Assembly (NCBI RefSeq): GCF_000278135.1
Contig: NZ_JH725026.1
Coordinates: 1,012 to 65,011 of the forward strand
Origin: Candidatus Bartonella washoeensis Sb944nv
GTDB lineage: Bacteria; Pseudomonadota; Alphaproteobacteria; Rhizobiales; Rhizobiaceae
Direction: 5' to 3'
DNA length: 64,000 bases
This document shows, in pieces, positions 1-17,566 of the stretch. Position numbers and translations under genes: made by a program. Position 1 is the first letter of the stretch. Every line of letters starts with the position of its first letter. The notes under the pieces are model-generated. The model saw nothing but the letters and a program-made list of their open reading frames with translations. It made no database searches and was not told where the DNA came from.

Positions 1-350
1 TGCGTATAATCAAAGTAAAAGGTTTCACCAAAATCAGTTCTGCTAACAACAAGTTGCTGTGGTTTTGCTAAACCATTTTTTATATCTGTTAAGTGATAAT
101 AAACAATATCACCAGCAGGATTATCTTCAAAACTTGCCTTATAAATGCTAAAAATTTCCTCATAACCAATTTCTCCTCCTTTATAATTTTTTAAAAAACC
201 TTTATAAGAAATTGTAAACTGCAAGCCGAGAATTTCTTCAGCCTCTTTAATCCGTACATCGCTAACTGCATCCTCTGCAGTACCGAAATTTATGATATCA
301 CTATATTTATCCACTAATTGTGCAACATCAGTTAAAGTATAAGTCTTCAT
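1..350 (-). CDS. cdiI: SUKH/SMI1-KNR4-type immunity protein (CdiI), partial
   Basis: The frame is open from the ATG at 350 to the window edge, so about 116 residues are visible and the C-terminus is missing. The start has a good ribosome site (GGAGAA) and lies only 20 bases after the cdiA stop. The protein starts MKTYTLTDVAQLVDKY. It then shows the SUKH pattern: an acidic helix (KEAEEILGLQF), a Y-K-x-F-L-x-x-Y-x-G-G-E-I core and a later YFDY strand. SUKH proteins are known immunity partners of polymorphic toxins, often HNH nucleases, which fits the LHH nuclease end of the preceding cdiA. Expected role: binds and neutralises the CdiA-CT of siblings in the cytoplasm. The family call is from pattern recognition; the cognate pairing is inferred from position. 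Confidence 0.8.
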   Translation of the reverse strand, partial: MKTYTLTDVAQLVDKYSDIINFGTAEDAVSDVRIKEAEEILGLQFTISYKGFLKNYKGGEIGYEEIFSIYKASFEDNPAGDIVYYHLTDIKNGLAKPQQLVVSRTDFGETFYFDYT

Positions 351-370
351 AATTTGTTCTCCATAAATTG

Positions 371-3300
371 TTATTTTTTAGCTTCTATATTTTTCTTTTC
401 ATAACCTTTAGCACGTTCTTTCCAGTACTCCATCCTCCATCTATCGAAAATATCTCTATCAATAGCTGATCCCATTGTATTAGGATTAATATGAATAGCA
501 GCAGTATTTTTTTTATGAAACTTATTGGTAACCTCTGCTATGGGACCATCATGTGTTTGCAGCATATGATGCAATTCAATGGGTCTATTATCAGCATCAA
601 GAGGAGCTCTTCCTGTTTTCATCCTCTCAATATTTGTACCTTTTACTTCTTTGCCGTTTACTGTCCAAGTAACAATTTTGTTAGGATCGAACAGATCTTC
701 TCTCTGATAGACTTTGTTTTTCTGAGTAATTTTTTCTCCCTTGTTCGTTATTTCAAACTCAACCTCAATGGGATCTGTTGACCAGAATTTTCTTTCCTGC
801 CCAAAATATTGAGTTGCAACAACTTCATCGCTCATCTTTCCTAGCGATTGAGCAACTTCCTTTCCTGCTTTTGCAATGTTTTTTTCAGCCTTAACAGAAA
901 GTTTAGCAAGAGTTTTTTCGGTAAGCTTGCCAATAAGCTTCGCACCACCCTTAGCTACACCAGCACCTCCCGCCACTAGGGATGCTGCATCGGTTAATAA
1001 TTTTCCAAGTTCAAGTCCAGCATGAAACGATCCGCTAATTCCCGCTCTTTGATATTCCTCCTCTAGATAATTAATACGCTCTAGATAAGACTGCTTTATT
1101 GTTTCTGTAACATTTCCACTCGTCACTAACTCTTTAAGCGCTTCCAATGTCTCTATGGGATGGCGCACCATTTGCCAAAAATCTTTACCCGTATCGTATA
1201 ATGCAGCTGGTATACCAGCGATCACACCTATCGAAAAAAACGTATCTTGTTGATCACCAATCTCGAGCCATTTTTCGTTAACATCTCTTCGACACCACTT
1301 ATCAGAACATTCCTCTAACTCTTTCTTCTTCTGAGCTTGTTGAGCGCTGCTGAGGTAGTTGTTTTCCGCAGCATTTCCAGCGGCATCCGCGCCAGCATTG
1401 ACATCACCCCCAGCAAGGGCAGTGGCAAGGCCGCCAGCAGCCCGTGCAACATTAATGGTGTGTTCTCTAAAGTCCGCAAACTGAGCATCAATTCTTGCCG
1501 TGATGCGGGCTTGCTCTTCCGGAGTGGGTGTGCGACCGTTTAGATCCCCCATTTCCTCTTTCACAATGCCTTGCACCCACAATTGAAACTGGAGCATAGC
1601 TGTGGCTTCGCCCACAGCCCCGCCGATAGCACCGGCAGAACAAGCGCCGCTCGCAACAGCACCTTTTAAGCAGCCAAGACCAGCATGGGCAACGATTTGT
1701 GTGACCGTGTCTATTTTGCCTTCAGCCTTGGCGGTACCGATTTCTTCCGCCAATGATTTGCCAACCGTATCAGACAGGGCGATGCGCAGATTGGTAATAA
1801 AGTTTTTATCAAGAGAGCCGCCCTCAAGAGCCGTTTGCACGCCTGTGCTAATGGCGGCTTTGATCAGGTTCTTTTCCGCTTCACGGGCGATACGATCAAC
1901 AAAAGGAGCGGTTTTTGGCAAAGATTGTCCAACACCAGCCATTTCTGTTATTTGACTGGTCAGACCTGCTGTTAACATCGACGAAACAATGCTGAGAACA
2001 GTCTTGGAAGAGCCAAGCTCATGCAATGCCGCAGCAATATCACCACGATTATTGATAAGCGCCACAGCGCTTTTGTTAATCAGTGCTTGGACACCTGCCT
2101 GTATCGCCGCATTCATGGCTGTGCTCGAGCCAACCCCTAAAGCACCGGTAATAGCACCGGCAGCTGTGGAAGCTGCTCCGCCCGTGGCGGCTGTGACAGC
2201 CAATGCCACGAGAGCCGCACCGGCTTCTGTTAATCCTTGGGCTTTATAATTCCAGTCTTTAAACTCAGCTCGAACTGCTTGCCAATCCACTTGCTTGGAT
2301 AGTTCTGGATCATCACGCAATTGCTTAATCCATGACAATCCTGGAGAGTGTGACAATTGCTCAAGAGATTGGTCTAAATCACCGGTTGCCTCATATTCAA
2401 CAACAATGCCATTGCCCGCATCAATTTTCATGCCACCCTTAGCATCTATGGTCACATGCTCGATGGTCTCCTTAAGGTAACCTTTGTCGCTCTCACTCCA
2501 CCACACAAGGTTTTCGTTACGCTGATAAGTGTCCTTAAAATCTTGATCCTTGTTGGTGAAGAGCTGGACCTTCCCCTCATCTGACGCAAGATGCATCTGA
2601 CCACCACTTGAGAGCCCTGCCGCACCAAGGATGAGATCCCCTTTTTGCGCATGCATGGAGAGATCTTTGCTAAAATCCACCGTGCTTTTGTTTGTGGTGA
2701 CTTCATTTGATTGTTGACGAAACTTATTCTTTTGCTTCGATTTGTCGCCTTCTTTGCCCCTAAGATCCAAATCAGAACTGCTAAAGCTTTGCACCGAAGT
2801 CAGCGTGAGAGCACCACCACTGATGAGATTCCCATCGCCCTTTCCTTTAACCTTAGCCCCATCCATGGTGAGAGTGCCATTCGTAACAATGTTAAGATCA
2901 TCCCCACTGTTAACTTCACTCAAACGGTGCTCACGGCTTTGGGCGTTATAATGCCCTTTTTCCAATGTCTGCGCATGTTCACTCTCTAGCTCTAACGCGC
3001 TAAAGTTAGCAGAACCATCGACAATCATCGTCATTGGACCGTCGCTGGTGAATTCCCCACCCTCTGCACCAAGATCACCAAGGGAGTGAATGTTTAATTC
3101 ATGATCAGAGAGAATTTGTCCCTTCTGCACAGCCCGATCAGCAAAACCATATTCATTTGTCTCACGGATTTTTGCCGTGCTATTGACAATAGTATTACCC
3201 GTCATGGTAACCGTATCACCATGAATAACACCGGAAGAATTGGCTAAAAGACCCCCACTGGTGAGCTCTACAGCTCCGGTAGCATCCAAAAAACCACCGT

Positions 3301-6300
3301 TATTGAACAAAGTTTGTGTGGTCGTCACCTGCAGTGCAACCTCACTCAACACAGCACCGCTATTGGTCAGACGGTCCGCATTTAAGCTGATCCCATTCCC
3401 TTTCAAACGCGCACTGGCTAAATCCCCTTGCGATCCTTGTGCATTGTTTATCCCTTGTTCTGAAGAGGACGTTTGCGCTAAATAAACGTGGGGTACCAAG
3501 ACCTCTTGTCCGTCGACAAGGTGTATCTCAAGCCAGATCATATCCTTTTTGATCCCAGCAATCTGCTGAGGCGTTAAGGGCTTGCCTAGCTCTAATCCCA
3601 AAGGACCTTGCTGCTCCACAGCATTGTCGTAGAGCCTTTGCATTTGAGCGTTAGGATCTTCACCATCAAGAAGAGTGCGATTGCCCGTCAGTTCAAAGAT
3701 TTGCTCCCCGACCAGACGATATTCAAAATAAGCATCCCCCAACCTTTTGAACACTTGCTCAGGCTTATAATTGCCAATCTTTTTTAAGTAATAGTCCGAA
3801 CCTAAAAATTTACTTGGATTGATAAAATCTGGACGCGTCTCAATGAAAAACGGCACATCCGGTGATTGTGTACCTGCCAATTCTGTCTTAACAGAGCCAA
3901 GCCCATCTTGCGTTGGCAGCTGTATAGATTCTGGTGTTGGTGTTTTTGTGCTTGGTGCAAAAAGTGCTTTGTGCTCCGTCAAACCATTGATAATGCCGTC
4001 TAATCGATCATTGCTGATCAACGGTTTAAAGCCATCAACGTCGGTATTTTTAACGCCAGTCAAGCTTTTATTGCCAGAGCTTAAGCCAATTTGACCGGCT
4101 CCCTCACGCACCGCATGATTGTCTAGAATTTCTGTAACCTTGACATCAAGAGTGCCACCCGCTTCAATCGTGCCATAAACCGCATCATAGGTACGTGTGA
4201 TTTTATCGAAAAAGGTAGGACCATCCCATTCTGCATCTGCACCGTTTATACATGCTGGATTTGTGAGACTACATTGCTTATGTCTGTAGCGTGTTTCAGT
4301 TACAATCTTGGTTGTTTCGATTAAATCGCGCCCCTCATTGAGCAGCGTATCGCACTGCATCTCAATATTGCCATTGGCAGCAATCAAGCTATAGCTGTTA
4401 CGGATATCGCCAGCATGAACCGTGAGATGGCGCCCTGCCAAAATCTGTGCTGCGTTATTGGTAAAATGAGGCTGCTGACGAATGATCGCGGTGTCGATAT
4501 TTTTCTTTATCTTTTGGTGATCAACGTTGGTTTTTTCCCAATCCCCTCGCACGTAACTGTGACCAACCACCTTATCAGTCACTTCAACCCCACCTTCACG
4601 CATATTGGTGAGTGAAGAGACATCGAAGATCATATCACCGGAGACAGCTTCTAAAAGACCCGAACTGTTGATGACATGACCAGCCCGCTCTCCACTAAAC
4701 CCGTGAATGGTTAAATTGTCTTCAGCAATGACATCGCCATGCTGATTAAGAAAAGAGCCATCTAAGGAGAGTGTTGCGGATTTCTGAGCATAAATCAGTC
4801 CGCTATTGCTCATATCCCCCGTTACATTGAGTGCAACCCCATCATCACTCGAACCAATACTACCGGCATTGTCCAAAACATCCGCGGTTAAAACAAAAGC
4901 GCCACCACTTTTGATAACCCCACCTTGTGCATTGAAAACCAAAGCAACTTGCTCCAGCAACGGATCATGATTTGCTGCTACAAGTGTAAAACTGTCACTG
5001 GCTAAAAGCTGTCCAAAATTTGCTAAAGAACCAAGATCCGCATCAACAACACTGCCCACTATGGTGCCGTGATTGCTTAAAACACCATGGCTATTGAGAG
5101 TAAGTTCTCCGCCTTGTGCTTCTATAAGCCCAGCTTGGTTAAGAGTGCCTGCCTTCAATGCCACATCATAAGCAGCAACCTCGCTTGTCTCACCCAGCGT
5201 CAAGGTACCATCGGTTGAAAGCTCTATCCGCTTTTGCGAAACAATACGCCCTGTTTGGTTCAAAGTGTTTTGCGCACGCAAAGCAATAGTGCCATTGCTT
5301 GCTATCGTACCGCTATTGGTTATATCACCGTGGCTTTCGAGAGTAAGTTCCTCACCTTGCGCTTCTATAAGCCCAGCTTGGTTAAGAGTACCTGCCTTCA
5401 ATGCCACATCATAGCCGCCAACTTGGCTTGTCTCACCCAGCGTCAAGGTACCATCGGTTGAAAGCTCTATCCGCTTTTGCGAAACAATACGCCCTGTTTG
5501 GTTTAGAGTGTTTTGTGCACTTACAGTGATTGCACTATTGCTTGCAAGCATACCGCTATTGGTTAAATCACCATGGCTGGTCAGTTGAAGATCACCACTG
5601 TCGCTCTCAATATATCCAGCCTGATGAATACTGTCCGCAACAACATTGACTACTCCTTGCGTAGAGAGCAAACTGTCGATATTCTCAAAAGCGCCAACAT
5701 CTATCAGCAAGCCACCACGTGCTAAAATGTAAGCTGTCCCCTCATGGAGTGTGGCATCCTGTTGTTCCTGCAACGATGTGTCTTGTTGTCCTGTATCTGT
5801 TGTCTCTGCGCCTTTATTGGTTAAAGACGCTGCTACAAGCTTCATCTCGCCGGTAAGACTCTTCAAAACACCCGCTTCATTGAGCACATGCCCAGCACGT
5901 TCCCTCTTCAGCCCACCTATAGTCAAATTCTCTTCGGCAATAATCTCGCCATGTTTATTGCTCAGAGCACCATCTAAGGACAATGCCATAGATTTTTTGG
6001 CGTAAATCAGCCCGCTATTGTTGACATCTCCTGCCACATTGAGAGCAACGCTCTCACCACTAGAACCAAGGGCACCGGCATTGTCTAATTGTCCTACTGA
6101 CAAGACAAAAATGCCGCCACTTTGAAGTACCCCTTCGGATGTATTCTCAAGAAAGGCTTGTTGTGGATCGGCGCCTTTTTGTGCACTTACCATCAGATGC
6201 AAATCACCGGTTGCAATAAACATACCTTGATTTGTAAATGCACCAGCATGAGCATTGATGCTTTCACCACGCATTGTGCCGCTATTTATGACCCCATTAC

Positions 6301-8116
6301 GCACCTGAAAGGTTAATGCTCCTTCTTGTGCTTCCACAGTCCCCGCTTGGGTTAAAGCATCAGCACTCAAAACTAAGTCATGACCTAAAAGCATACTGTC
6401 TGTGCTGGTTATAAGCATGCCCCCGGCTGTCAACGCAGCCTTCTGCACACTGACAATCTCACCTTTGTGACTCAATGCACCATGAGCATTCAGTGTGATC
6501 TCTCCATTGGAAAAAACACTGCCTTCTTGAACAAGATCACCGCTATGAGCATAAAGGTCAATTTTTTGCTCTGCCACTAAGTCGGCACGCGATGATACCT
6601 CTGCTGCTTCCACCAAAAGAAAGCCGCCGGCGCTATAATGGCCTGCACCTACAGTAAGCGCATCATCGGCTTTTAGAACAATATTCCCCTTGGCACCAAT
6701 ATGGTTGTTTAAAGCGCTGATTTGGTTGGTGTCAATTATCAAATCGCCAAGAGAAGAGACCCCTGTTTGATCATTGTCTTGCATACGGCTTAGAACAATT
6801 TTTGCTGCTTGGATCTCTAAAAGATCACCAGCTGCTATCCGCCCATCCCCCGCCTCAAGCTTCGCTACCTGTAAATGCAAAGAACCCGTCGCTGACTGTT
6901 GACCATCACTCCCAATACCGCTTGCTAAAAGAGCATGAGACTGGAGCTTGATCACATCGGCGCGCACATTAACAGTACCGCTTGCCGCAACGCGAGCATG
7001 CTCAGCCAATTCAACATGCTTCAAAGCCTTCAGTTCAACCGCTTCTTCTGAAAAAAGCAGATCTTTCACATGCACACTGTCGTGATGAGAATGAGCCTTC
7101 ACTACTCCTTTGGCACGTGCTTTGGCAAGCACCAGCTTGCCATCACTTGTCAACCTCATGGCGCCTGCATTGGCAACCATGTTGCCAAGCATCTTAACGC
7201 CAGCGCCTTTATCATTGGCAAGCACGCGGATCTGCCCTGCATACATTCCACCAAACTCACTGGAATCAATCGCCAATTCCGGCTCTTTGCCATCAGAACC
7301 AAGAGAAGTTGCTTCCCGCTTGTGATAATTAAAATGATTATGACCAGCAACAACAGCCAATTCCCCTTTGACTTGAATGGGACCTGCCACACTGATCTTG
7401 CGCGAAATAAGATCAAAAATATCCACTGTGCGCCCATCAGCCCCACGAACACCTATGGTGATGTTGCCGCCTTCAACGCGTAAACCACTCAAAGCACCAT
7501 CGGATCCAATGATCGGCTGTCCGGTTGATAAAGTCACCCGTGGTGTATTGATAAAACCACAACCGTTACACGTGATCCCATTGGGATTGGCGATAATAAC
7601 ATCAGCCATATGCCCATGTACTTCGCTCACGCCTTCAAGACGCGAGCGATTGGCACTCACCACTTCATTAAGAATAACCTTTGCTGCACCGGTATTACGT
7701 AAATTGCCATTTCCAGGCACCAATCCCCCAAGCTGTGAACGCGAAACCTCCTGGGTCGAATTGTTCAAAATCACACCATGGATATCAACATTGAAATTGT
7801 CATATTTGTTATGAGAAAGACCTTGTCCATTGGGGCGAACAATATCAATCAGCGGCACACCATTGCCTACTGCTCCCACCGTTGGACGGAAAACAGAGCC
7901 AACCCCATCAGCTGCTTTAATCCCTTGAGACACTTGTGTAACAGGACTTTGCGCTCCAAGCGCTTGCGCTTGCAATAACAAAGGCTGAAAGGCCAAGCAA
8001 AAACTTAAAACTAGCGAAAGCCCCTTCTGTGCCCCTCGCTGCAAAAGTCCCATGGCGCGCCATCCTGATTTGCGTCCATATCCCAATTTATGCTTTTGAT
8101 CTCTCAATCCCCGCAT
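371..8116 (-). CDS. cdiA: CdiA/FhaB-type contact-dependent inhibition exoprotein with LHH nuclease tip
   Basis: A 2,581-residue TpsA exoprotein. The N-terminus is a long basic region followed by a hydrophobic stretch (about 31-52), an extended signal peptide. The two-partner secretion domain follows, with NPNGI starting at 177. Residues of about 340-1,200 are beta-helical FHA repeats. Then come a DUF637-like region rich in Ala/Gly (about 1,960-2,175) and a VENN-type boundary reading AENN at 2250-2253. The remaining 330 residues are the variable toxic tip, with a hydrophobic entry-like segment and a nuclease core with L2515-H2516-H2517, a later TGxxxE-less H-rich segment and NPNT. This matches the LHH family of HNH/Endo VII nucleases. 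It follows cdiB by about 90 bases and precedes a SUKH gene, the standard cdiBAI order. Nuclease activity is inferred from the family; the frame is intact. Confidence 0.93.
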   Translation of the reverse strand: MRGLRDQKHKLGYGRKSGWRAMGLLQRGAQKGLSLVLSFCLAFQPLLLQAQALGAQSPVTQVSQGIKAADGVGSVFRPTVGAVGNGVPLIDIVRPNGQGLSHNKYDNFNVDIHGVILNNSTQEVSRSQLGGLVPGNGNLRNTGAAKVILNEVVSANRSRLEGVSEVHGHMADVIIANPNGITCNGCGFINTPRVTLSTGQPIIGSDGALSGLRVEGGNITIGVRGADGRTVDIFDLISRKISVAGPIQVKGELAVVAGHNHFNYHKREATSLGSDGKEPELAIDSSEFGGMYAGQIRVLANDKGAGVKMLGNMVANAGAMRLTSDGKLVLAKARAKGVVKAHSHHDSVHVKDLLFSEEAVELKALKHVELAEHARVAASGTVNVRADVIKLQSHALLASGIGSDGQQSATGSLHLQVAKLEAGDGRIAAGDLLEIQAAKIVLSRMQDNDQTGVSSLGDLIIDTNQISALNNHIGAKGNIVLKADDALTVGAGHYSAGGFLLVEAAEVSSRADLVAEQKIDLYAHSGDLVQEGSVFSNGEITLNAHGALSHKGEIVSVQKAALTAGGMLITSTDSMLLGHDLVLSADALTQAGTVEAQEGALTFQVRNGVINSGTMRGESINAHAGAFTNQGMFIATGDLHLMVSAQKGADPQQAFLENTSEGVLQSGGIFVLSVGQLDNAGALGSSGESVALNVAGDVNNSGLIYAKKSMALSLDGALSNKHGEIIAEENLTIGGLKRERAGHVLNEAGVLKSLTGEMKLVAASLTNKGAETTDTGQQDTSLQEQQDATLHEGTAYILARGGLLIDVGAFENIDSLLSTQGVVNVVADSIHQAGYIESDSGDLQLTSHGDLTNSGMLASNSAITVSAQNTLNQTGRIVSQKRIELSTDGTLTLGETSQVGGYDVALKAGTLNQAGLIEAQGEELTLESHGDITNSGTIASNGTIALRAQNTLNQTGRIVSQKRIELSTDGTLTLGETSEVAAYDVALKAGTLNQAGLIEAQGGELTLNSHGVLSNHGTIVGSVVDADLGSLANFGQLLASDSFTLVAANHDPLLEQVALVFNAQGGVIKSGGAFVLTADVLDNAGSIGSSDDGVALNVTGDMSNSGLIYAQKSATLSLDGSFLNQHGDVIAEDNLTIHGFSGERAGHVINSSGLLEAVSGDMIFDVSSLTNMREGGVEVTDKVVGHSYVRGDWEKTNVDHQKIKKNIDTAIIRQQPHFTNNAAQILAGRHLTVHAGDIRNSYSLIAANGNIEMQCDTLLNEGRDLIETTKIVTETRYRHKQCSLTNPACINGADAEWDGPTFFDKITRTYDAVYGTIEAGGTLDVKVTEILDNHAVREGAGQIGLSSGNKSLTGVKNTDVDGFKPLISNDRLDGIINGLTEHKALFAPSTKTPTPESIQLPTQDGLGSVKTELAGTQSPDVPFFIETRPDFINPSKFLGSDYYLKKIGNYKPEQVFKRLGDAYFEYRLVGEQIFELTGNRTLLDGEDPNAQMQRLYDNAVEQQGPLGLELGKPLTPQQIAGIKKDMIWLEIHLVDGQEVLVPHVYLAQTSSSEQGINNAQGSQGDLASARLKGNGISLNADRLTNSGAVLSEVALQVTTTQTLFNNGGFLDATGAVELTSGGLLANSSGVIHGDTVTMTGNTIVNSTAKIRETNEYGFADRAVQKGQILSDHELNIHSLGDLGAEGGEFTSDGPMTMIVDGSANFSALELESEHAQTLEKGHYNAQSREHRLSEVNSGDDLNIVTNGTLTMDGAKVKGKGDGNLISGGALTLTSVQSFSSSDLDLRGKEGDKSKQKNKFRQQSNEVTTNKSTVDFSKDLSMHAQKGDLILGAAGLSSGGQMHLASDEGKVQLFTNKDQDFKDTYQRNENLVWWSESDKGYLKETIEHVTIDAKGGMKIDAGNGIVVEYEATGDLDQSLEQLSHSPGLSWIKQLRDDPELSKQVDWQAVRAEFKDWNYKAQGLTEAGAALVALAVTAATGGAASTAAGAITGALGVGSSTAMNAAIQAGVQALINKSAVALINNRGDIAAALHELGSSKTVLSIVSSMLTAGLTSQITEMAGVGQSLPKTAPFVDRIAREAEKNLIKAAISTGVQTALEGGSLDKNFITNLRIALSDTVGKSLAEEIGTAKAEGKIDTVTQIVAHAGLGCLKGAVASGACSAGAIGGAVGEATAMLQFQLWVQGIVKEEMGDLNGRTPTPEEQARITARIDAQFADFREHTINVARAAGGLATALAGGDVNAGADAAGNAAENNYLSSAQQAQKKKELEECSDKWCRRDVNEKWLEIGDQQDTFFSIGVIAGIPAALYDTGKDFWQMVRHPIETLEALKELVTSGNVTETIKQSYLERINYLEEEYQRAGISGSFHAGLELGKLLTDAASLVAGGAGVAKGGAKLIGKLTEKTLAKLSVKAEKNIAKAGKEVAQSLGKMSDEVVATQYFGQERKFWSTDPIEVEFEITNKGEKITQKNKVYQREDLFDPNKIVTWTVNGKEVKGTNIERMKTGRAPLDADNRPIELHHMLQTHDGPIAEVTNKFHKKNTAAIHINPNTMGSAIDRDIFDRWRMEYWKERAKGYEKKNIEAKK
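5096..5581 (-). repeat. Tandem 243-bp repeat inside cdiA (2 units)
   Basis: Units at 5096-5338 and 5339-5581 are offset by exactly 243 bases (81 codons). Long stretches are identical, for example the segment coding TLNQAGLIEAQG and the one coding GRIVSQKRIELSTDGTLTLG. They correspond to residues of about 846-926 and 927-1007. Because the period is a multiple of three, gain or loss of units keeps the frame. Confidence 0.9.
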
Positions 8117-8207
8117 CTTTTACTCCTCAAAAATCTTCTATCTCTTTGTAAAAAATGACCCTCAATGGGTATAAACAGCGAAGCGATATTTTTACCGCCT
8201 CTTTACC

Positions 8208-9971
8208 CTAAAACCTTAACAGAGCCCGCATTTGAAAAACCCCTGTTGCGTTGTCCTTCTCTCTTGGTGTCGATTGGATCAAAATATTTGAATAGGACAG
8301 ATCCATATCCAAAATCTCTCCAGTTGCATGAAAACCTAGAGTTGCCCCAACGAGGCTACCGCCAAAACTGTTTTTACTTGCATCATTGGCGGCGCTGCCT
8401 AAATCAAGCGCTACATAAGGGGCAAATTGTCTCATAAATTTACGTCCCCTTTGCGAAGAAAAACCCGGCAATAACAGCGACAATTCATTGCGCCAAAACA
8501 TGGCATTATTGCCATAATAAATCGCCTCACGCACCCCGCGCACAGATGAACTACCACCAAGCGACATTTGCTCTGAACTAAACAACGTATCGGGTGATAA
8601 TTGTCCTGAAAACAGCGTGTTATAGCGGAAATTAAACTGATGTAGAGAAAAGGGACGCACATAGCCTAGGGAAAAAGACAATTTAGAAAATTGCCCTTTG
8701 GGTGCATTTTTTGTTGAAGTTTCTTGAGCTTTATCATCATAAGCACCCAAAATTGCCAATCCCTTATGAAACCCTATATGAGCACTTAATTCTCCTCCCA
8801 GCCACTTGCGCGAATGATCAAGCTCAAAGGTGGCAATAGCAAGTTTACGACTGGTGACATCAACCTTGCTGCCCATAATAAAATTATCAGAATATTTCCA
8901 TGTTAACCGTCCTGTAAGCCATGTCTTCCCCTCTTGATCACGGTCGATAACCCGTGAAATCCATGGTGTAAGCGATAAAGACTTGCCCGATGTTAAAATG
9001 TCAGAAAATATTCCCTTAATACTCGAATGATATTGGCTCCATGTGCCATCAAAACCCGTTGTCCAAGTGCCATAGGGAAGAGAAAAAGAGCCCGTTACCG
9101 TACCACTATTGGGACGATTTTGGGAGAAGTGATATGGTCCACCATCCATGGAACGCTGATAGCTGAAGGACCATTGATCATTGGAACCTAACAGATCATC
9201 AAAAGAAAGGCTCACGCGCGTTTGGTAAAGTCCTGTCGCTTTAGCGCCAAGATTATCACTGGAAAAACTGAGAAGCCAAGGTTTTTGTTTTTCAATATGA
9301 ACATCGAGTATGGAACCACCCGAATTGCCACCAGCACCAAGATTTATGGTGGCTTGGCGTGAAAAAAGCCGATTGATTTGATCAAGACCTTGCTCTATCG
9401 AGCGTAGATTGACCGGTTTCCCAATAAGATTTGGAAAAGCCGTGATGATTTCTTCTTGAAATCTCCTCTCAACTTTATGCCCATCAAGGATAATATCTTC
9501 TATCACACCTTCAACGACAACAATCTTGAGATGACCGCCGCTTAAATCTTGCTCGGGTAAATAAGCCCGCACCGCAATATAGCCACGCTTCATATAAAGC
9601 TTAGTCACTGCTTTGAGCACTTTGTTGATTTCGGCAATACCAAGACACCGCCCTTCCCAAAGAGAAATGGCATCATGAAGGTCAGCGTGAGAAATTAACT
9701 GAGCGCCAACAAATTCAATGCTTTTGATCAGCAAACAGGTTTTTCCTGTTGAAGTACCATAGAGAGCTGTGGAGTCATCATCCGGCAAAGATATCCCAGG
9801 CATTTCTTTCCTACGGTGTAATTGCTGAAAACGTTGTTGTTGTGTTTGTTGTCGTTGGATGCTCTCTGATTGATTAATTGCTTTCTCACGAATGTTTTGT
9901 GCAAAAAGCGGTAAAGAAAAAAAGCACAAAAAAGCCGTGACAAGCACAAAAGAAAATGAAGAACAACGCAT
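8208..9971 (-). CDS. cdiB: CdiB/ShlB-type outer-membrane two-partner secretion transporter
   Basis: 587 residues, usual for TpsB proteins. A signal peptide (about 1-24, ending LPLFAQ) is followed by a Gln-rich stretch. Two POTRA domains come next (about 75-240, with the typical RGY-type segment MKRGYIAVRAYLPEQ and LKIVVVEG). The C-terminal part is a 16-strand barrel with a VRG motif in SSSVRGVREAIYYG, the conserved loop-6 signature, and it ends with an aromatic residue (LLRF). It secretes and presents the adjacent CdiA on the cell surface. The start codon overlaps the stop of the small upstream ORF by one base (TAATG), which implies translational coupling. Confidence 0.94.
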   Translation of the reverse strand: MRCSSFSFVLVTAFLCFFSLPLFAQNIREKAINQSESIQRQQTQQQRFQQLHRRKEMPGISLPDDDSTALYGTSTGKTCLLIKSIEFVGAQLISHADLHDAISLWEGRCLGIAEINKVLKAVTKLYMKRGYIAVRAYLPEQDLSGGHLKIVVVEGVIEDIILDGHKVERRFQEEIITAFPNLIGKPVNLRSIEQGLDQINRLFSRQATINLGAGGNSGGSILDVHIEKQKPWLLSFSSDNLGAKATGLYQTRVSLSFDDLLGSNDQWSFSYQRSMDGGPYHFSQNRPNSGTVTGSFSLPYGTWTTGFDGTWSQYHSSIKGIFSDILTSGKSLSLTPWISRVIDRDQEGKTWLTGRLTWKYSDNFIMGSKVDVTSRKLAIATFELDHSRKWLGGELSAHIGFHKGLAILGAYDDKAQETSTKNAPKGQFSKLSFSLGYVRPFSLHQFNFRYNTLFSGQLSPDTLFSSEQMSLGGSSSVRGVREAIYYGNNAMFWRNELSLLLPGFSSQRGRKFMRQFAPYVALDLGSAANDASKNSFGGSLVGATLGFHATGEILDMDLSYSNILIQSTPREKDNATGVFQMRALLRF

Positions 9972-10153
9972 TAATTTCTGCTCTCAAAATGAGAAGCAAA
10001 ACAAAACGCCTTATCATCTCCAAAAGGAAAATAACGAACCGCGTAACAATCTTTTAATTTTTTGATGAGAGCATTGTTTTTAGAACCGACGTAAAGAGCA
10101 TAAAACGCATTGACCGCACCATATATACCCGCTTTATTGGTTGCGTAAGTCAT
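9971..10153 (-). CDS. Small ORF translationally coupled to cdiB, unknown function
   Basis: A 60-residue frame starting MTYATNKAGIYGAVNAFYAL and ending HFESRN. I do not recognise the family; no signal peptide or clear membrane helix is visible. I chose the ATG at 10153 because it follows a poly-G ribosome site at the right distance; a GTG at 10168 would extend it by five residues through the G tract. Its stop overlaps the cdiB start (TAATG), so it is probably the first gene of the CDI operon or a translated leader. It could also be the remnant of a larger gene. Confidence 0.55.
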   Translation of the reverse strand: MTYATNKAGIYGAVNAFYALYVGSKNNALIKKLKDCYAVRYFPFGDDKAFCFASHFESRN

Positions 10154-10158
10154 AATAT

Positions 10159-10166
10159 CCCCCCCC
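10159..10166 (-). promoter_or_regulatory. G8 homopolymer acting as ribosome binding site
   Basis: Eight consecutive G on the minus strand lie five bases before the ATG at 10153. They form the only purine-rich Shine-Dalgarno candidate for the first ORF of the cdi operon. Homopolymeric G tracts of this length are prone to slippage. Confidence 0.6.
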
Positions 10167-10196
10167 ACTTCTGAAGATGCTCATTCACCTGTTAAA

Positions 10197-10351: not shown

Positions 10352-11063
10352 GATAAGAAAAACCATCACAACTATCGTCTATTTACGACAGAAGCAAAAA
10401 AGCAAGTTCGTGATGGTATTACTGATGCGGAGTTAAATAAATTACAGTCTGCTTATCTTGATAAGAACATAATTAAAGAAGATATCTTTTATTATGTTTA
10501 CGGGCTTTTGCATTTGGAAGATTATCGTGCGCGTTATGCTGATAAACTCTCTAAAGAGCTCCCTCGCATCCCTTGCGTAAAGAGTGCTGAGAATTTTTGG
10601 ATATTTGTTACTGCGGAACGTGAATTGGGCAATTTGCACGTCAATTATGAAACTGTAGAGCCTTATCCTGTTACCTTTAAAAAAGGTAATCCTAAACTTA
10701 CAGATATCTCTAATCCTGAGAAATTCTATTATGTTACAGAAATGAAATTTGCTGGGAATAGTAAGAAAAAAGATAAATCTACTGTTATTTACAACCGTAA
10801 TATCACAATGACAGATATACCTAAGGAAGCTTATAACTATATCGTCAATGGTAAACCCGCTCTTGAATGGGTTATGGGGCGTCAATGTGTAAAGACTGAT
10901 AAAAAGAGTGGCATTGTTAATGATGCCAATTGCTATGCTGTTGAAACTATTGGCAACCCTGCTTATCCATTGGAATTGTTTCAAAGGGTTTATTACCGTA
11001 AGTTTAGAAATAATGAAGATTGTTAAGAACCTCCCAAAATTGGAAATAAGAGAAACTGAATAG
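10352..11063 (+). pseudogene. C-terminal remnant of a Type ISP restriction-modification enzyme, frameshifted
   Basis: The frame is open from about 10,349 with no proper start. It reads IFYYVYGLLHLEDYRARYAD, KELPRIP, GKPALEWVMGRQCVKTDK and SGIVNDANCYA. These are hallmarks of the C-terminal specificity region of Type ISP (LlaBIII-like) or related N6-methylase/helicase restriction enzymes. After LELFQRV the frame runs into nonsense and a stop at 11026. The +1 frame continues the family pattern (ITVSLEIMKIVKNLP) to TAG at 11061-11063, so one extra T in the GGGTTTATT stretch near 10988 broke it. The methylase and helicase domains are absent. The gene is dead. Confidence 0.85.
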
Positions 11064-11897
11064 ACTTAAGAAAGCATGCTCACATTTCACATGATGGATA
11101 TGCACATCTTACAAGGGGTATAGACATATAACTGTAATCTATACCTCTCTTGTTAAGTTGATTATGTACAATCTTAAAAGGAACCATTTACCATGCGCTA
11201 TTCTAAAAAAGAGGCTTTGCACCTTTAACACACTCATTTGGATTGCTTTAAGACTTTTAAGAAACCCCATCTTAAACAGAATGAGATTTTTTACATTGCC
11301 TTTAAAAGCTTAACTCGCAATCTAAAATGATAGCATTATACTTTTCAAAAACTCTCTTTAAAGAGAATTGTGAATACTTATATTACTTTACGCTTTTAAT
11401 TCCCTAATTTTTGAAAAAAATATAAACACCCCCCTACAAAACATATATTACATGTTGTATTTATAGGGTGCATTTAATATAGGTTGTTTACATTAGAGAC
11501 CCTTAATAAACAAAATTCACAAAAAAATTAAAATTCATTTAGTAAAAAAACTGATAGGTTATAAAGATAAAAATACGCATTATGAGAGCGTTTTTAAATA
11601 TCATAAATGTTATAGATTCAAAACATAACGTAATCGTTTTATAAAGCCTATAATATAGATTTAAAATCATATAAATATAAAAGAATAAATTGATAAGAAT
11701 AAGATATTATCTATACATAATGTATTAAAAAATATCAAAAAAATAAAATAATAATTGATAATAAATACGTATTTTATTATATAAATGATCAAGTACTGAA
11801 AACACTTAAACATCAAGCGGGTAGATTACGAAACAATCTTTCCCATATCAAAAAACTGACTATCTTTTATGCTGTGATTAGCATATATGGAAATTTT
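11064..11897. other. AT-rich intergenic region, no intact gene
   Basis: No convincing ORF is present. A short frame at about 11,270-11,330 (LKQNEIFYIAFKSLTRNLK) and a tiny one at 11,192 look like debris. The stretch 11,380-11,800 is very AT-rich. Confidence 0.6.
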
Positions 11898-11980
11898 GTC
11901 GGGTGTGGTCATGCTATACAAAACCCTATGGGGAAGGCGTGCCGACGGACTTGATGCCGTGTTTTCAACACCCGGCGCCT
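11898..11980 (+). ncRNA. Candidate structured RNA A (phage-type, possibly C4-like)
   Basis: A GC-rich island in AT-rich surroundings. CGGGTGT (11900-11906) pairs with ACACCCG (11968-11974) to close the element. Inside lie CCC-TATG-GGG (11924-11933) and ACGG/CCGT (11945-11948 with 11957-11960). It ends about 45 bases before the beta-helix-repeat gene at 12027. The shape and phage context recall C4 antisense RNA of P1-like phages, but I could not test this. Confidence 0.4.
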
Positions 11981-12026
11981 TTATAGGTTGTCAATTGAAA
12001 ACAATATTAACATCAAGGTTTTAATT

Positions 12027-12702
12027 ATGAAAAATACAGTAAAAAACACCCCCGTTATCTCTTCCATTGCAAATAAAACCGCCCCTGTTAATCAACAAGA
12101 GCCTGCAAAAATACGAATTTACCAATGAAAGATTCACTTTTGATGGTCTTACTTTACACCGTATACGTGCTCTAAGAGATTTTGATGATGTTAAGGCGGG
12201 GGACCTCGATGGTTTTATTCAATATGAAAGTAACTTATCCCATGATGGCAATTGCTGGGTCTATGATAATGCCGCGGTTCTTTTCAATGCAACTGTTTAT
12301 GAAAATGCTAAAATCTATAATGATGCGAAAATCTTTAGAGGTGCCAAGGTATATGGCAATGCTATCGTTAATGGCAAGGCATTGGTTTTTGATACAACCG
12401 CTCATATTTATAATAATGCAAAAATTCATGATAACGCTAGGGTTTGTGGGCATGTTTATGGTAATGCCCATGTTTTTTGTAATGCCTGGATTAAGGATTA
12501 TGCAAGTATCTATGGGAATGCCAAGGTTTCTGGCTCGGCTCGTGTTGGTTGCTTTGTAAGGATTTATGATCATGCCCATGTCTATGGCAAATCAAATATT
12601 GATCATCATGTGCAAATTTATGGCAATGCTGTTGTGAATAGCCGTGCAAAAATTCGTGATGATATTTGTGGTAATAACCAGTCACTAAAAGACGCTGCTT
12701 AA
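12027..12702 (+). pseudogene. Phage beta-helix-repeat protein, copy A, frameshifted in a poly-A run
   Basis: The true start seems to be the ATG at 12027 (MKNTVKNTPVISSIANK) with AAGG upstream. This frame stops at 12126. The rest of the family sequence (QKYEFTNERFTFDGLTLHRI onward) continues in the +1 frame to 12702. The switch falls at A5, 12107-12111. The body has the family head (KYEF, LHRIRALRDF, GFI, LSHDGNCWVY) and then about 14 hexapeptide-like repeats (YxNAxV/I), which should fold as a left-handed beta helix. The function of this widespread prophage family is unknown. It could still be expressed by slippage or an internal TTG start at 12067. Confidence 0.75.
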
Positions 12703-12711
12703 ATAACGCGT

Positions 12712-12736
12712 GGGCGCCGCGGGGGCGCCCTTTTTT
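12712..12736 (+). terminator. Rho-independent terminator after copy A
   Basis: GGGCGCC (12712-12718) pairs with GGCGCCC (12724-12730), followed by T6 (12731-12736). Very strong intrinsic terminator. Confidence 0.93.
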
Positions 12737-12783
12737 AAACATCTCATTTAAAAATTTAAATCTCTTTATAAAGAAATTGTGCT

Positions 12784-12960
12784 ATGCAAAAGAAGTTTGC
12801 ACTCACAAATGAAACGCGTGTATTTGGTAATCATACCCTTTATCGCATCCAAGCATTAAAAGATTTTGCTGATATCAAAGCAGGTACCTTAGGCGGCTTT
12901 ATTGAAAAGGAAGATAACCTCTCTCATAAAACAATAAACAACCGATTTTATCAAACGTAA
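12784..12960 (+). CDS. Truncated phage beta-helix-repeat protein, copy B
   Basis: 58 residues. It starts MQKKFALTNETRVFGNHTLY and carries the whole family head through GGFIEKEDNLSHK. Where copies A and C read GNCWV and enter the repeats, this copy reads TINNRFYQT and stops. All hexapeptide repeats are lost, so it is probably a degraded gene or a non-functional stub. Confidence 0.6.
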   Translation: MQKKFALTNETRVFGNHTLYRIQALKDFADIKAGTLGGFIEKEDNLSHKTINNRFYQT

Positions 12961-13399
12961 GGCTTTAAAAACTGTTATAAACATCAGTTTCAAACGTTTA
13001 AACGTGCATTTAGAAAATGCTTTCATAAGCGTATTTTCATTAATTTTATGTTTTTATCATGTGATAACAATCCAATCTTTAAAACAAGATGTGATCTTTA
13101 AACGTATGTTATCGATAATTCCAAACAATTAAATTTTAAAACAATGTAATTTGTGCTGTGATAAAAACGTATCATAAATTTATAAACTGTTATGAATGAT
13201 ATCTGCTTTTCATTTTATTTGAATGCTCCCATACGTTATAATATTCGCATCATGATTTGCTTTTTATGATCTGTTTATAGATAGCAATTGTTTATAAAAA
13301 ATAGTCAAATAAATCATGCATAAAAATGTGGATTCTTATAAAATAATTCCACTCAACTCATTGATTTTATTGTATTTTTTAGTATTATATCTTATATAA
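12961..13399. other. AT-rich intergenic region with a 12-bp palindrome
   Basis: No gene seen. A perfect palindrome, ACGTTTAAACGT, lies at 12994-13005, and several related TTTAAACGT-like words follow. Confidence 0.5.
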
Positions 13400-13460
13400 C
13401 CGACACAAGGTGGGCAAATGTTCCTCTGTGGCGAAAAACATCTTGGCGATCTCGTGTCGG
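13400..13460 (+). ncRNA. Candidate structured RNA B upstream of the toxin-antitoxin pair
   Basis: CCGACAC (13400-13406) pairs perfectly with GTGTCGG (13454-13460). The interior contains ATGTT/AACAT and CAAG/CTTG pairings. Like element A it is a compact GC-rich block of 60-85 bases in AT-rich DNA within the phage remnant. No ORF explains it. The strand is assumed from the neighbouring genes. Confidence 0.4.
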
Positions 13461-13534
13461 TCCTCCCGTCTTTATTGTGATATAATGACGCGACATCCTA
13501 AAGCCTTTCCGTGATACAAAAATTATAAACTAAC

Positions 13535-13563
13535 TTGACATTACACATCATGTGCACTATAGT
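13535..13563 (+). promoter_or_regulatory. Toxin-antitoxin promoter with embedded operator
   Basis: TTGACA (13535-13540), a 17-base spacer and TATAGT (13558-13563) form a near-consensus sigma-70 promoter. The spacer contains the dyad CACAT-C-ATGTG (13544-13554), well placed for autorepression by the antitoxin. The predicted start point is at or next to the ATG at 13570. Confidence 0.75.
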
Positions 13564-13569
13564 ACTCAG

Positions 13570-13881
13570 ATGGTAACGATAATAAAAACAACAGATGAAT
13601 TCGATGAATGGTTAGAAAAGCTTAAAGACAGAAAAGCTGCCAATATAATTCTTACAAGACTTCATAGAATTCGTTCAGGGCTTTTGGGTGATGCGAAGTT
13701 TTTTAATGGTATAGGTGAATTGCGTATCCACTATGGTGCTGGATATCGAGTTTATTTCACAAAAAAAGGCAATAAAATCATTATATTGCTTTGTGGTGGT
13801 GACAAATCCACACAATCCAAAGATATTCAAAAAGCCTTATCTCTTTTGGAGGACCTTAAAAATGAAATTGAAAACCTTTAA
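13570..13881 (+). CDS. HigB/RelE-type toxin (phage Gp49-like addiction killer)
   Basis: 103 residues starting MVTIIKTTDEFDEWLEKLKD, with the family pattern RLHRIRSGLLGDAKFFNGIGELRIHYGAGYRVYF and LLCGGDKSTQSKDI. This is the RelE-fold killer family (Gp49-like, TIGR02683 type), which is expected to cleave mRNA at the ribosome. An upstream GTG (13552) is rejected as start because it lies inside the promoter; the ATG at 13570 would be leaderless or nearly so. The frame overlaps the antitoxin by 20 bases, with the toxin first. Confidence 0.88.
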   Translation: MVTIIKTTDEFDEWLEKLKDRKAANIILTRLHRIRSGLLGDAKFFNGIGELRIHYGAGYRVYFTKKGNKIIILLCGGDKSTQSKDIQKALSLLEDLKNEIENL

Positions 13882-14143
13882 TTTTGAAAAACACCTCACA
13901 ACACCAGAATCTCAAGAAATCTTTTTAAATGAAGCCTTCAAAACTGGTGATGCTGCACATATAGCTGATGCCCTTGGGATCGTTGCTAGAGCCCAAAATA
14001 TGAGTGCTTTAGCAAAAAAAACGAACCGTGAACGCAGCGGTTTATATCGCTCCTTAAGCAAGACTGGTGACCCTAGACTTTCTACTTTAGTCGCTGTGCT
14101 CTCTGCTCTTAATCTGCAATTAAGCGTACAATCTTCTTCTTGA
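13862..14143 (+). CDS. Antitoxin of the HigB/RelE-type pair (HTH addiction antidote)
   Basis: 93 residues, MKLKTFNFEKHLTTPESQEI..., with a helix-turn-helix region (ADALGIVARAQNMSALAKKT, then LYRSLSKTGDPRLSTLVAVL). This matches the DNA-binding antidote family that partners Gp49-like toxins (TIGR02684 type). GGAGG lies 8 bases before the ATG, inside the toxin gene. It probably binds the dyad in the promoter. It ends immediately before a convergent phage fragment. Confidence 0.88.
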   Translation: MKLKTFNFEKHLTTPESQEIFLNEAFKTGDAAHIADALGIVARAQNMSALAKKTNRERSGLYRSLSKTGDPRLSTLVAVLSALNLQLSVQSSS

Positions 14144-14415
14144 TCAGTGATTAGTCACAAACTCAACAATCACCGTTGCCTGACCAGAAGCGACCTGTTT
14201 ATCTAATTTTGCATAAAGAGTAAGCTCTTCATCATAAGGGACAAATTCTTTCTGATTGCTTATCGTGAGAGATTTTATGCCCTGTGTCCCAATATCTGCT
14301 TCACTAAAGTCTTGCACTTCAGTAGTGCTACCAAACTTTAACTTAGCTCCTGTAAAAGCTGTCTTAACGTACACTTTAATCGAAGTAATCAGTGCTGCGC
14401 AAGGCAAGGTTCCTA
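14144..14415 (-). pseudogene. C-terminal fragment of an unidentified phage protein
   Basis: The minus strand reads GTLPCAALITSIKVYVKTAF, then GAKLKFGSTTEVQDFSEADIG, and ends VIVEFVTNH. The upstream part of the frame runs antisense through a beta-helix-repeat fragment, so the true 5' end was lost at a junction near 14,415-14,421. The composition suggests a phage structural (tail or decoration) protein, but I do not recognise the family firmly. Confidence 0.55.
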
Positions 14416-14421
14416 TAGAGC

Positions 14422-14598
14422 AACTGTTGGGTTTATGATGATGCCATGGTTTTTGGCTATGCAAAAGTTTGTTATTTTGCAAATAGTTATGAAAATGCAA
14501 GTGTTCATTGTAATGCAGAAGTGTATGGTAACGCAATGATTTACGGAGCTTCAGAGGTTCGCGGAAACAGTATTATCACAACCGGCGAGAGGCGATAA
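14422..14598 (+). pseudogene. C-terminal fragment of a phage beta-helix-repeat protein, copy D
   Basis: Starts abruptly at NCWVYDDAMVFGYAKV, the start of the repeat section in the family, and carries seven or so YxNA-type repeats. It ends SIITTGERR. The head domain (KYEF... LSH) is missing because the preceding DNA belongs to an opposite-strand phage gene. No start codon or ribosome site is present. Confidence 0.7.
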
Positions 14599-14601
14599 AT
14601 C

Positions 14602-14985
14602 ATGGAAAAGAAATACGAGTTTACTGATGAAAAAATTGAAGTGGATGGTCGTACTCTGTACCGCATTCGTGCATTGAGAGACTTTGGAGATGTAAATGCG
14701 GGTGATTTGGGTGGTTTTATAGATCATGAGGGCAAATTAAGTCATAAAGGCAATTGTTGGGTTGGAGATCTTGCTGCTGTTTATGAGAATACGCAAGTTT
14801 ATGATGATGCCAACATTTTCGGCGCAGCACATGTTTACGGAGATGCATGTATTTATGGCAGTGCAAGAGTTTACAATAATGCCGAAATTTATGACAAGGC
14901 GCGTATTTGTGGCAATGCACAAATTTACAAACATGCGTTTGTAGGCGGCAATCACATCATGTCAACTGGAGAAAAAACCAGATGA
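14602..14985 (+). CDS. Phage beta-helix-repeat protein, copy C (short but intact)
   Basis: 127 residues from the ATG at 14602 (GAGAGG upstream). The head reads MEKKYEFTDEKIEVDGRTLY, RIRALRDFGDVNAGDLGGFI, then GNCWVGDLAAVYENTQVYDD and about nine hexapeptide-like repeats (VYGDACIYGSARVYNNAEIY). It ends TGEKTR. The repeats predict a small left-handed beta helix. It begins three bases after fragment D. The family is common in prophages; its function is unknown. Confidence 0.75.
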   Translation: MEKKYEFTDEKIEVDGRTLYRIRALRDFGDVNAGDLGGFIDHEGKLSHKGNCWVGDLAAVYENTQVYDDANIFGAAHVYGDACIYGSARVYNNAEIYDKARICGNAQIYKHAFVGGNHIMSTGEKTR

Positions 14986-15051
14986 AAAATACGCATTACT
15001 AATCTTATAGTATCTCTATAAGCCGTTTCTAAACACACAAACAATCCTTTT

Positions 15052-15085
15052 AACACAAGCGTGATTCACGCCACGGGTGAATTGC
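15052..15085 (+). repeat. 34-bp leader repeat, copy 1 (before bet)
   Basis: Matches 16087-16120 at 31 of 34 bases. It contains the perfect dyad GCGTGA-T-TCACGC and, overlapping it, ATTCAC-N7-GTGAAT. It lies just upstream of the bet ribosome site, a plausible operator or RNA hairpin. Confidence 0.8.
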
Positions 15086-15105
15086 GCGCAATGGAGGAAA
15101 TCAAG

Positions 15106-16010
15106 ATGACAAATTCCACCTTAACAAGAATGGCTAGTAAATACGGGTTCTCACATGAAGAATTTCGAAAAACAATTATCAAAACTTGTATTGGTTGCAA
15201 CTTTTCTGATGAAGAGTTCGCTGCTTTTCTTTCTGTTGCCAACACTTATGGACTTAATCCTCTAACAAAAGAAATTTATGTATTTCCTAAAAAAGGCGGT
15301 GACATGATCCCTGTTGTTTCTATCGACGGTTGGATAAAGATTATCAAATCAAATCCTGACTTTGATGGCATGACCTTTCAAGATCAACTCGATAAGGATG
15401 GTAATCTCATTGCTATCAAATGTGCTATTCGTTTGAAAAACATTAAAGACCCGATAGAGGTTACTGAATATTTAGAAGAATGTAAGCAAGAAAAAGTGAA
15501 CCTTGGAGCAAATATCCAGCACGCATGCTACGTCACAAAGCTACAATACAATGTGCTCGCTATGCTTTCAGGTTTTCAGGAATTTATGAAGAAGATGAAG
15601 CAGCACATATCAATGAGATAAGCCATAACACGCAAGAGCAAATGGTATCTCATGACATGATTATACAAATCAGACAATTAATAGAACAAACCCAAACTGA
15701 AGAAGCAAACGTTCTCTCTTTTGTTCAAGTTAAAAACCTCACAGACATGTCTCATAAGCAAGCACAAAGAGTTTTGGAGGTATTGGAAAAAAAGCAAAAC
15801 ATTCAAAGAGAAAACGCACAACAATCCTTACCATCACAAGAGAAAACAGATGTTTCGATACAAATAGACAGATTATATCAAATTTTCTTAGACAAAAAAC
15901 GCATTGCAATCACCTGTTTTGAGGCTGATGTATGCATGTGTCATAGAGGAAGAATAGTAAACGCTCTTACAAAATTACAAGATTGGAAATACGAAATTCA
16001 GCACCTCTAA
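15106..16010 (+). pseudogene. bet: Phage Bet/RecT-family single-strand annealing protein, frameshifted
   Basis: The start is ATG at 15106 (MTNSTLTRMASKYGFSHEEF) with GGAGG upstream. The first frame carries the Bet core: CIGCNFSDEEFAAFLSVANT, YGLNPLTKEIYVFPKKGG, VSIDGWIKII and EVTEYLEECK. After K-V-N (about 15,500) it becomes nonsense and stops at 15621. The other frame supplies the continuation (PWSKYPARMLRHKATIQCAR, FRFSGIYEEDEA) and runs to 16010. A single-base deletion near 15,499-15,503 therefore splits the gene. The C-terminal part adds a helical RecT-like tail and a 90-residue extension I do not recognise. Confidence 0.87.
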
Positions 16011-16086
16011 AAAATGGACCAGAAAATTTATTAAAACGTGAGATGTTTTCTTAACCCCTCCCAATTCCTCCCTCTCTAAAATTTTC

Positions 16087-16120
16087 AACACAAGCGCGAT
16101 TCACGCCACGCGTAAATTGC
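16087..16120 (+). repeat. 34-bp leader repeat, copy 2 (before small phage gene)
   Basis: Second copy of the element at 15052-15085, with three substitutions. The dyad is slightly degraded (GCGCGA-T-TCACGC). It sits 24 bases before the ATG at 16144. Confidence 0.8.
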
Positions 16121-16143
16121 ATCTGAATGTAAGGAGAAAAGAT

Positions 16144-16362
16144 ATGGCACCTCGCCCTGCTACCATCACGCAACCAGCTATTGCTCGCGCTTTAAGAGAA
16201 GCAAAAAAACAAAGATGCGAATTAATAGAAATTAAGCCTACGGGCGAGCTCCTTATTTATCTCAAATCAGATATTCCAATACCAAATTCAATAGCGCATC
16301 CAGACAAATTATTCGATTTGTCAAAGAATGAATACTACGAAGATGCGCTCTCTAAGATGTGA
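16144..16362 (+). CDS. Small conserved prophage protein preceding integrase
   Basis: 72 residues: MAPRPATITQPAIARALREA, then KKQRCELIEIKPTGELLIYL and a hydrophilic tail. AAGGAG precedes the ATG at 16144, so a longer TTG form from 16117 is unlikely. Proteins of this layout (RPATxTQ...AxRAxxxA...EIxPxG) often lie immediately before tyrosine integrases in alphaproteobacterial prophages. A role as a recombination directionality factor is possible but unproven. Its stop is 7 bases before the integrase ATG. Confidence 0.7.
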   Translation: MAPRPATITQPAIARALREAKKQRCELIEIKPTGELLIYLKSDIPIPNSIAHPDKLFDLSKNEYYEDALSKM

Positions 16363-16369
16363 AATTGCT

Positions 16370-17413: not shown

Positions 17414-17489
17414 ACAAGAAAAAAATTAAAAGAATCAATGGAATCAAAATTCCTGAACTTTTATATAACCTATTGATTTTACTTAAACA

Positions 17490-17566
<77 letters not shown>

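Follow-up and report, generated by a model that had tools for sequence, protein, structure and literature searches.

A probable contact-dependent inhibition locus with an LHH nuclease tip, SUKH immunity genes and a spare module array in Candidatus Bartonella washoeensis

The left end of a 64,000-nucleotide stretch of the Candidatus Bartonella washoeensis Sb944nv genome (the window; bases 1012-65011 of contig C5, in a 1.97-Mb assembly of 11 contigs) very probably holds a Bartonella contact-dependent inhibition (CDI) system, made up of the transporter CdiB, the large protein CdiA with an LHH nuclease tip, a SUKH immunity gene and an array of spare modules. Judged from sequence, it reads as a cdiBAI locus followed by an orphan toxin-immunity array. 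In the CDI scheme, CdiA makes contact with another cell, its tip is released at a VENN motif and passes by way of an entry domain into the cytoplasm, where it acts as a toxin unless an immunity protein neutralises it (PMC11630599; papers given by PMC number are cited from portions of their texts). The window holds the sequence parts of this scheme, the immunity gene being incomplete. An initial annotation of the same DNA had proposed a cdiBAI locus with an LHH tip and a SUKH immunity gene, and this proposal is supported by the domains, the gene order, the fold of the immunity protein and a genus-wide comparison.

Organization of the locus

The map of open reading frames (ORFs) places a small ORF, cdiB, cdiA and the SUKH gene in this order on the minus strand (Table 1), and together with Pfam it bears out the order first read from the sequence. 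CdiB is an Omp85-type transporter with POTRA domains, as CDI systems possess (ShlB 264 bits, POTRA_2 83 bits and POTRA_3 48.6 bits, all above cut-offs). CdiA combines a two-partner secretion (TPS) domain with haemagglutinin repeats, of which Fil_haemagg_2 is barely above its cut-off (22.5 bits, cut-off 22) and Fil_haemagg below it (20.8 bits, cut-off 21.5); TIGR01731 reaches 53.4 bits. A VENN-type pre-toxin region precedes a C-terminal toxin that becomes variable after the motif AENN. The LHH tip, for which a Pfam check had been proposed, matches PF14411 far above the cut-off. Residues N2495, E2528, H2534 and H2542 are conserved without exception in the 32 tips picked by their aligned LHH motif, L2515-H2517 thus being the selection criterion. 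Among 12 aligned sequences W2560 is nearly invariant and W2565 invariant, and the residue pattern of Tox-LHH (N, LHH, E, H, H, W) is complete.

The cut ORF adjoining the tip matches SUKH_6 (44.6 bits, cut-off 27), SUKH_5 (38.3 bits) and SMI1_KNR4 (30.6 bits), all above cut-offs, in agreement with the predicted immunity gene. Its frame is open at the window edge, as had been noticed, and the cause is an assembly gap: a run of 100 N (C5:912-1011) directly precedes the window, so extending the sequence to the left does not complete this copy. The extension, which had been suggested as a check, leads instead to a near-identical intact copy. Left of the gap lie the last ~109 residues of a second LHH tip, an intact SUKH gene of 157 residues (C5:88-561; 98% identity to the window's cut part, SUKH_6 57.2 bits) and, at the contig end, the start of a third SUKH gene. 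Structure modelling gives the intact copy a SUKH fold, with a predicted local distance difference test score (pLDDT) of 91.4, and its best match in the PDB is YobK (2prv; E 1.4e-8, TM 0.77), followed by 2icg and 3d5p, titled SMI1/KNR4 family. The SUKH fold expected beyond the left edge is thus predicted for the neighbouring copy. By sequence, the cut SUKH ORF and the LHH region found nothing significant in the PDB (one match each, at E 0.47 and 0.44). An identical 568-bp block is common to the two module copies flanking the gap, which diverge at both block ends. As proof of a recent duplication this block was rejected: it borders the assembly gap and may be an effect of repeat assembly, though each copy has its own flanks. 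The G+C content is 0.30-0.36 in the DNA of the LHH end and SUKH gene (windows 1-800) versus 0.44-0.51 over positions 1201-8000.

Across this genome, ShlB is matched at three places, LHH at six (two on C5, four on C3) and SUKH_6 at nine, eight of them above the cut-off. On C3, LHH tips and SUKH genes form an array together with tips of one other class, and several of the frames there are broken.

Table 1. Coordinates of the described features (window positions unless a locus or contig is given)
Feature	Position	Strand	Basis or remark
Small ORF	9971..10153	-	60 aa from ATG; ATG and a G-rich, ribosome-site-like stretch in 6 aligned loci including the window
cdiB, outer-membrane two-partner transporter	8208..9971	-	587 aa; Pfam ShlB, POTRA_2, POTRA_3
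cdiA	371..8116	-	2581 aa; ORF and Pfam
TPS secretion domain of CdiA	7130..7879 (residues 80-329)	-	Pfam, 165.8 bits
DUF637 of CdiA	1619..2107 (residues 2004-2166)	-	Pfam, 103.3 bits
PT-VENN pre-toxin domain of CdiA	1349..1465 (residues 2218-2256)	-	Pfam, 26.2 bits (cut-off 20.3)
AENN motif, likely processing point and first exchange junction	1358..1369 (residues 2250-2253)	-
Putative cytoplasm-entry domain	917..1357 (residues 2254-2400)	-	varies independently of stalk and LHH; function by analogy (PMC11630599)
Linker and predicted LHH nuclease region	374..916 (residues 2401-2581)	-	tip comparison
LHH domain, PF14411	407..637 (residues 2494-2570)	-	Pfam, 79.3 bits (cut-off 23.3), and motif residues
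SUKH immunity gene cdiI, first 116 residues	3..350	-	open at window edge; 3' part lost in assembly gap
Stand-alone mini-LHH ORF, ~115 aa	L008:5275-5622 (contig C3:71274-71621)		orthologues in other Bartonella genomes
PD-(D/E)XK-like/DUF6990 pair of this genome	L008:5715-8291 (contig C3:71714-74290)		motif and neighbour

The protein could also be a filamentous-haemagglutinin adhesin for host cells, the LHH tip and the SUKH gene being passengers that at present play no part in competition. Bartonella filamentous haemagglutinin has been discussed as a possible adhesin (PMC3083372), and the genome holds two other TPS loci on contigs C1 and C4 (L089 and L090), two copies of a distant two-partner gene pair with CdiB 36-38% identical; in Pfam, the large C1 protein carries TPS and haemagglutinin repeats and no PT-VENN, DUF637 or toxin domain. 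The window protein, in contrast, has DUF637, PT-VENN, an LHH domain with its motif residues and a coupled SUKH gene. The median ratio of nonsynonymous to synonymous substitution rates (dN/dS) is below 1 in both LHH classes described below, at 0.43 in class 1 (25 sequences) and 0.26 in class 2 (13), the stalk reaching 0.10 (26). An adhesin with idle passengers is hence unlikely; a dual role in adhesion and competition is possible.

Pairing of toxins and immunity genes

Of 71 Bartonella genomes, 30 have an LHH match (29 above the cut-off) and 25 have the cdiA stalk region. The loci on C5 and C3 were mapped along with 35 further regions taken from the LHH and stalk match lists, which do not form an unbiased sample. 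Loci outside the genome table and SUKH matches of 100 residues or fewer were dropped, as were LHH frames whose match began beyond query position 40 or stopped short of 170. At least one SUKH gene lies downstream of 38 of the 43 LHH regions collected from 19 genomes, and up to five follow a single LHH. In other genera, the ORF after the LHH is a SUKH gene in nine of ten cases given to Pfam (of 70 loci, 42 are from other genera; the next ORF was sought in 25 of these, found in 23 and scanned in ten). The tenth, from Pseudomonas, had no Pfam match; its LHH frame ended far downstream and the wrong ORF may have been taken.

The coupling concerns the first SUKH gene. LHH distances correlate with those of the first SUKH gene (Mantel r 0.503, n 38, 0 of 2000 permutations) and do not track the second (r 0.059, n 20, 374 of 2000). 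The correlation of LHH with the entry domain is weak (r 0.217, n 31, 16 of 2000), and none is clear between entry domain and first SUKH (r 0.118, n 30, 176 of 2000). Each comparison was restricted to modules that have both parts, each longer than 100 residues, giving n of 20 to 38, and SUKH frames longer than 230 residues were trimmed to 165; the permutation counts are not formal probabilities, because the modules are related by descent and transfer. By class, LHH class 1 is followed by SUKH class 1 in 23 of 25 modules and LHH class 2 by other SUKH classes in 13 of 13.

These figures bear on the idea that the SUKH genes behind the tip form a cluster for polyimmunity in general, and that the first of them is not the cognate antidote of the tip. 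Among homogeneous polyimmunity loci, tandem SUKH genes are the most common (PMC3482391), and the five SUKH genes that can follow one LHH would fit such a cluster. That LHH divergence is followed by the first gene and not by the second, in the 20 modules with both, argues against it and makes it quite improbable.

Several observations weigh against the CDI reading. The structure model of the LHH is middling (mean pLDDT 71.9, with residues 1-28 of the model below 50) and finds no match among PDB structures at E <= 0.001, so the evidence for an HNH fold is the Pfam match and the motif. The assembly lacks the end of the cognate SUKH gene, and the exact order of the array cannot be trusted, because the copies beside the gap share the identical block. 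By the rule used, five of the 43 LHH regions have no SUKH gene behind them, partly in cut loci or through frame breaks, and the class rule is broken in two of the 25 class 1 modules, both in loci with seemingly broken or fused SUKH frames. Stalk distances, too, are correlated with those of the toxin (r 0.317, n 28, 5 of 2000) and of the entry domain (r 0.263, n 28, 0 of 2000), and common descent thus explains some of the correlation.

Exchange junctions in the CdiA tip

Frames that bear the stalk end through AENN number 48, of which 42, in 28 loci, have tips of at least 240 residues. Among the latter, 32 carry the aligned LHH motif, two are cut LHH tips and eight are PD-(D/E)XK-like, the last two groups being assigned by reading the ends. 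An identity profile of 41 tips against the window cdiA was computed in 20-residue bins, after dropping the six of 48 tips shorter than 240 residues; some tips in the profile begin within the stalk, and this depresses the stalk means. Mean identity is 90% at AENN, 46% around residue 2280, 54-61% over 2320-2400, 28% around 2420 and 40-63% from 2460.

The initial annotation had taken AENN as the boundary of one swappable toxin of 330 residues and had proposed comparing cdiA C-termini across Bartonella. The expected drop after AENN is seen, and identity then recovers and falls a second time. Pairs of modules within single genomes reveal three junctions. One lies after AENN (G067, L074 11397 versus 4094: stalk 99%, entry domain 34%, LHH 86%), one between entry domain and linker (G022, L071 10556 versus 13358: entry domain 98%, linker 22%, LHH 57%), and one inside the nuclease from about DLFDPN (G022, L072 12793 versus 15594: linker 100%, LHH 73%). 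AENN is thus the outermost of several exchange points. Tips conserved beyond AENN next to different immunity genes had been named as evidence against the proposal, and in G022 such a case exists: a module pair is 98-100% identical through AENN and the entire entry domain, with first SUKH genes in different classes. This counts in part against the AENN boundary, a proposal that is only partly right, and leaves the CDI reading unharmed.

From these comparisons, the tip appears to consist of an entry domain (~2254-2400) and an LHH nuclease region (2401-2581) that reassort, and the predicted nuclease would be the last ~90-180 residues of CdiA, not 330. A broader proposal, for which we see about equal grounds for belief and doubt, is that Bartonella diversifies its CDI tips mostly within one nuclease fold. 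Short conserved anchors, namely the AENN block, the entry/linker border at ~2395 and the DLFDPN-to-GTN block within the nuclease, would be nested recombination points that allow entry specificity, nuclease linker and nuclease-immunity specificity to be swapped independently of one another, the smallest cassette being the nuclease end with its SUKH gene; a second, PD-(D/E)XK-like tip class would be neutralised by tandem DUF6990 as a new immunity family.

A decaying locus, in which cdiA works as a stick and the tip array consists of dead remnants left by recombination, could account for the stops, frame breaks and fragments in many arrays and for the motif loss in 11 of 12 aligned copies of a stand-alone mini-LHH, and is very unlikely in view of full-length open cdiA and cdiB frames in the window, an intact LHH motif and median dN/dS below 1 for the stalk, the LHH and the SUKH genes tested (those behind the mini-LHH).

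Proposed mode of action and significance

Under the CDI reading, CdiB would export CdiA across the outer membrane and the CdiA stalk would contact a neighbouring cell, where the C-terminal part may be released at or near AENN. The domain at 2254-2400 would then pass the tip through the inner membrane, after which the LHH nuclease, presumably of the HNH/EndoVII type, would cut nucleic acid, most likely DNA. In kin, the SUKH protein from the next gene would bind and block the nuclease. The spare LHH/SUKH modules may serve as a source from which new tip-immunity pairs are recombined into cdiA, and several SUKH genes may be kept as wider immunity.

A related system is the YobL/YobK pair of Bacillus subtilis. 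YobK is the best structural match of the SUKH copy, and the LHH and SUKH_6 profiles both match in B. subtilis. YobL itself presumably holds the LHH domain. This pair differs from the Bartonella locus in its LXG/type VII export in a Gram-positive bacterium, against two-partner secretion here. YobL is a DNase in B. subtilis (PMC8321402) and showed RNase activity when expressed in Escherichia coli (PMC6562991); DNA is favoured as the substrate of the LHH tip.

Bartonella is known mainly for its host-directed effectors. The locus places a complete-looking CDI system with an immunity array in this genus and suggests contact competition between strains that share a host or vector. The array also offers many natural toxin-immunity pairs within one fold, on which toxin-immunity specificity can be tested.

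Relation to known systems

The locus resembles the cdiBAI loci of proteobacteria with VENN-type CdiA in its CdiB, in a CdiA with TPS, DUF637 and PT-VENN, in a two-part tip and in the adjacent immunity gene with orphan cdiA-CT/cdiI modules behind (PMC4927057, PMC11630599). Such orphan modules behind cdiBAI have been described, as have cdi genes on a genomic island of B. henselae (PMC4927057). Unlike the known loci, nearly all Bartonella tips listed carry AENN or AANN, and the 42 long tips appear to comprise two toxin kinds only, in loci chosen from the LHH and stalk match lists.

A further difference is the small ORF before cdiB. The initial annotation had started it at a GTG (9971-10168, 65 aa); the ATG at 10153, preceded by a G-rich stretch, is the likelier start. 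A frame of 59-60 residues with an ATG start precedes cdiB in six loci, the window's own among them. These six aligned loci are those with matches among 12 searched: L077, which includes only ~200 bases upstream of cdiB, gave a DNA match and no protein match, L069, L070 and L074 end short of the region, and the remaining two, L089 and L090, make up the distant pair. The protein had no Pfam match, and dN/dS between its two sequence groups is not meaningful, as these differ in length by one codon and were not realigned.

Tox-LHH with Imm-SUKH has been tabulated, with the type V secretion system (T5SS) among its export routes and SUKH genes in polyimmunity arrays (Zhang et al., 2012, PMC3482391). 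The initial annotation had rightly called LHH with SUKH an established combination, and the locus is accordingly a further example of a known one. It shares with the tabulated pairs the motif N, LHH, E, H, H, W, the SUKH immunity, the T5SS route and the SUKH arrays, and differs in the nested exchange junctions described here and in that Bartonella is unnamed in the examined portion of that text. What is new is the clear view of tip shuffling, the kind of system itself being already known. In Bartonella, presence-absence differences of filamentous haemagglutinin genes have been reported, in a text that lacks the terms CdiA and contact-dependent (PMC3610622). In the open-access papers searched, none was found on Bartonella SMI1 with filamentous hemagglutinin or, judged from titles and abstract starts, on a Bartonella SUKH protein.

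Neighbouring genes and related modules

To the right of the locus, window positions 10508-17566 hold a Type ISP C-terminal fragment, RecT, an addiction-module antidote protein and a phage integrase next to tRNA-Arg. The CDI locus may sit on a mobile island, because these phage-type genes and the integrase beside tRNA-Arg adjoin it. A second tRNA-Arg end as attachment repeat was not found with a 25-base pattern allowing up to 2 mismatches.

Relatives of the mini-LHH on C3 (at least 63% identity over at least 93 residues) occur in 16 of 71 genomes including this one, two of them with an internal stop. Its motif is intact in one of 12 aligned copies (11 genomes) and degenerate in the others, all 12 being of similar length. 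Where found (10 of 12), a SUKH gene starts 234-271 nucleotides after it; by eye, no coding remnant was seen in the ~270-bp spacer at four loci. The median dN/dS is 0.52 for the mini-LHH versus 0.28 for the SUKH gene behind it (seven sequences), which suggests that an antidote has been kept beside a dead toxin.

In 11 pairs, a PD-(D/E)XK-like frame (R-x-D...[ED]-x-KTG) lies 3-15 nucleotides ahead of a large DUF6990-type protein. In six pairs (L071, L072, L074, L077, L081, L098) it terminates a frame that carries the stalk, and in five (L008, L070, L078, L087, L099) it forms a frame of its own. The class is assigned by the visible motif, its Pfam matches all being below cut-off. Each of the seven neighbour proteins scanned, out of 11, contains four DUF6990 stretches. 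Among 26 listed DUF6990-type frames of at least 400 residues, the other 15 have no PD-(D/E)XK-like frame directly upstream. No paper on DUF6990 was found among the open-access papers searched. DUF6990 is a candidate new immunity family, and the link, if true, would give a role to a family of unknown function. It is present in 36 of 71 Bartonella genomes and, across the order, in two of 297 sampled genomes, this one included.

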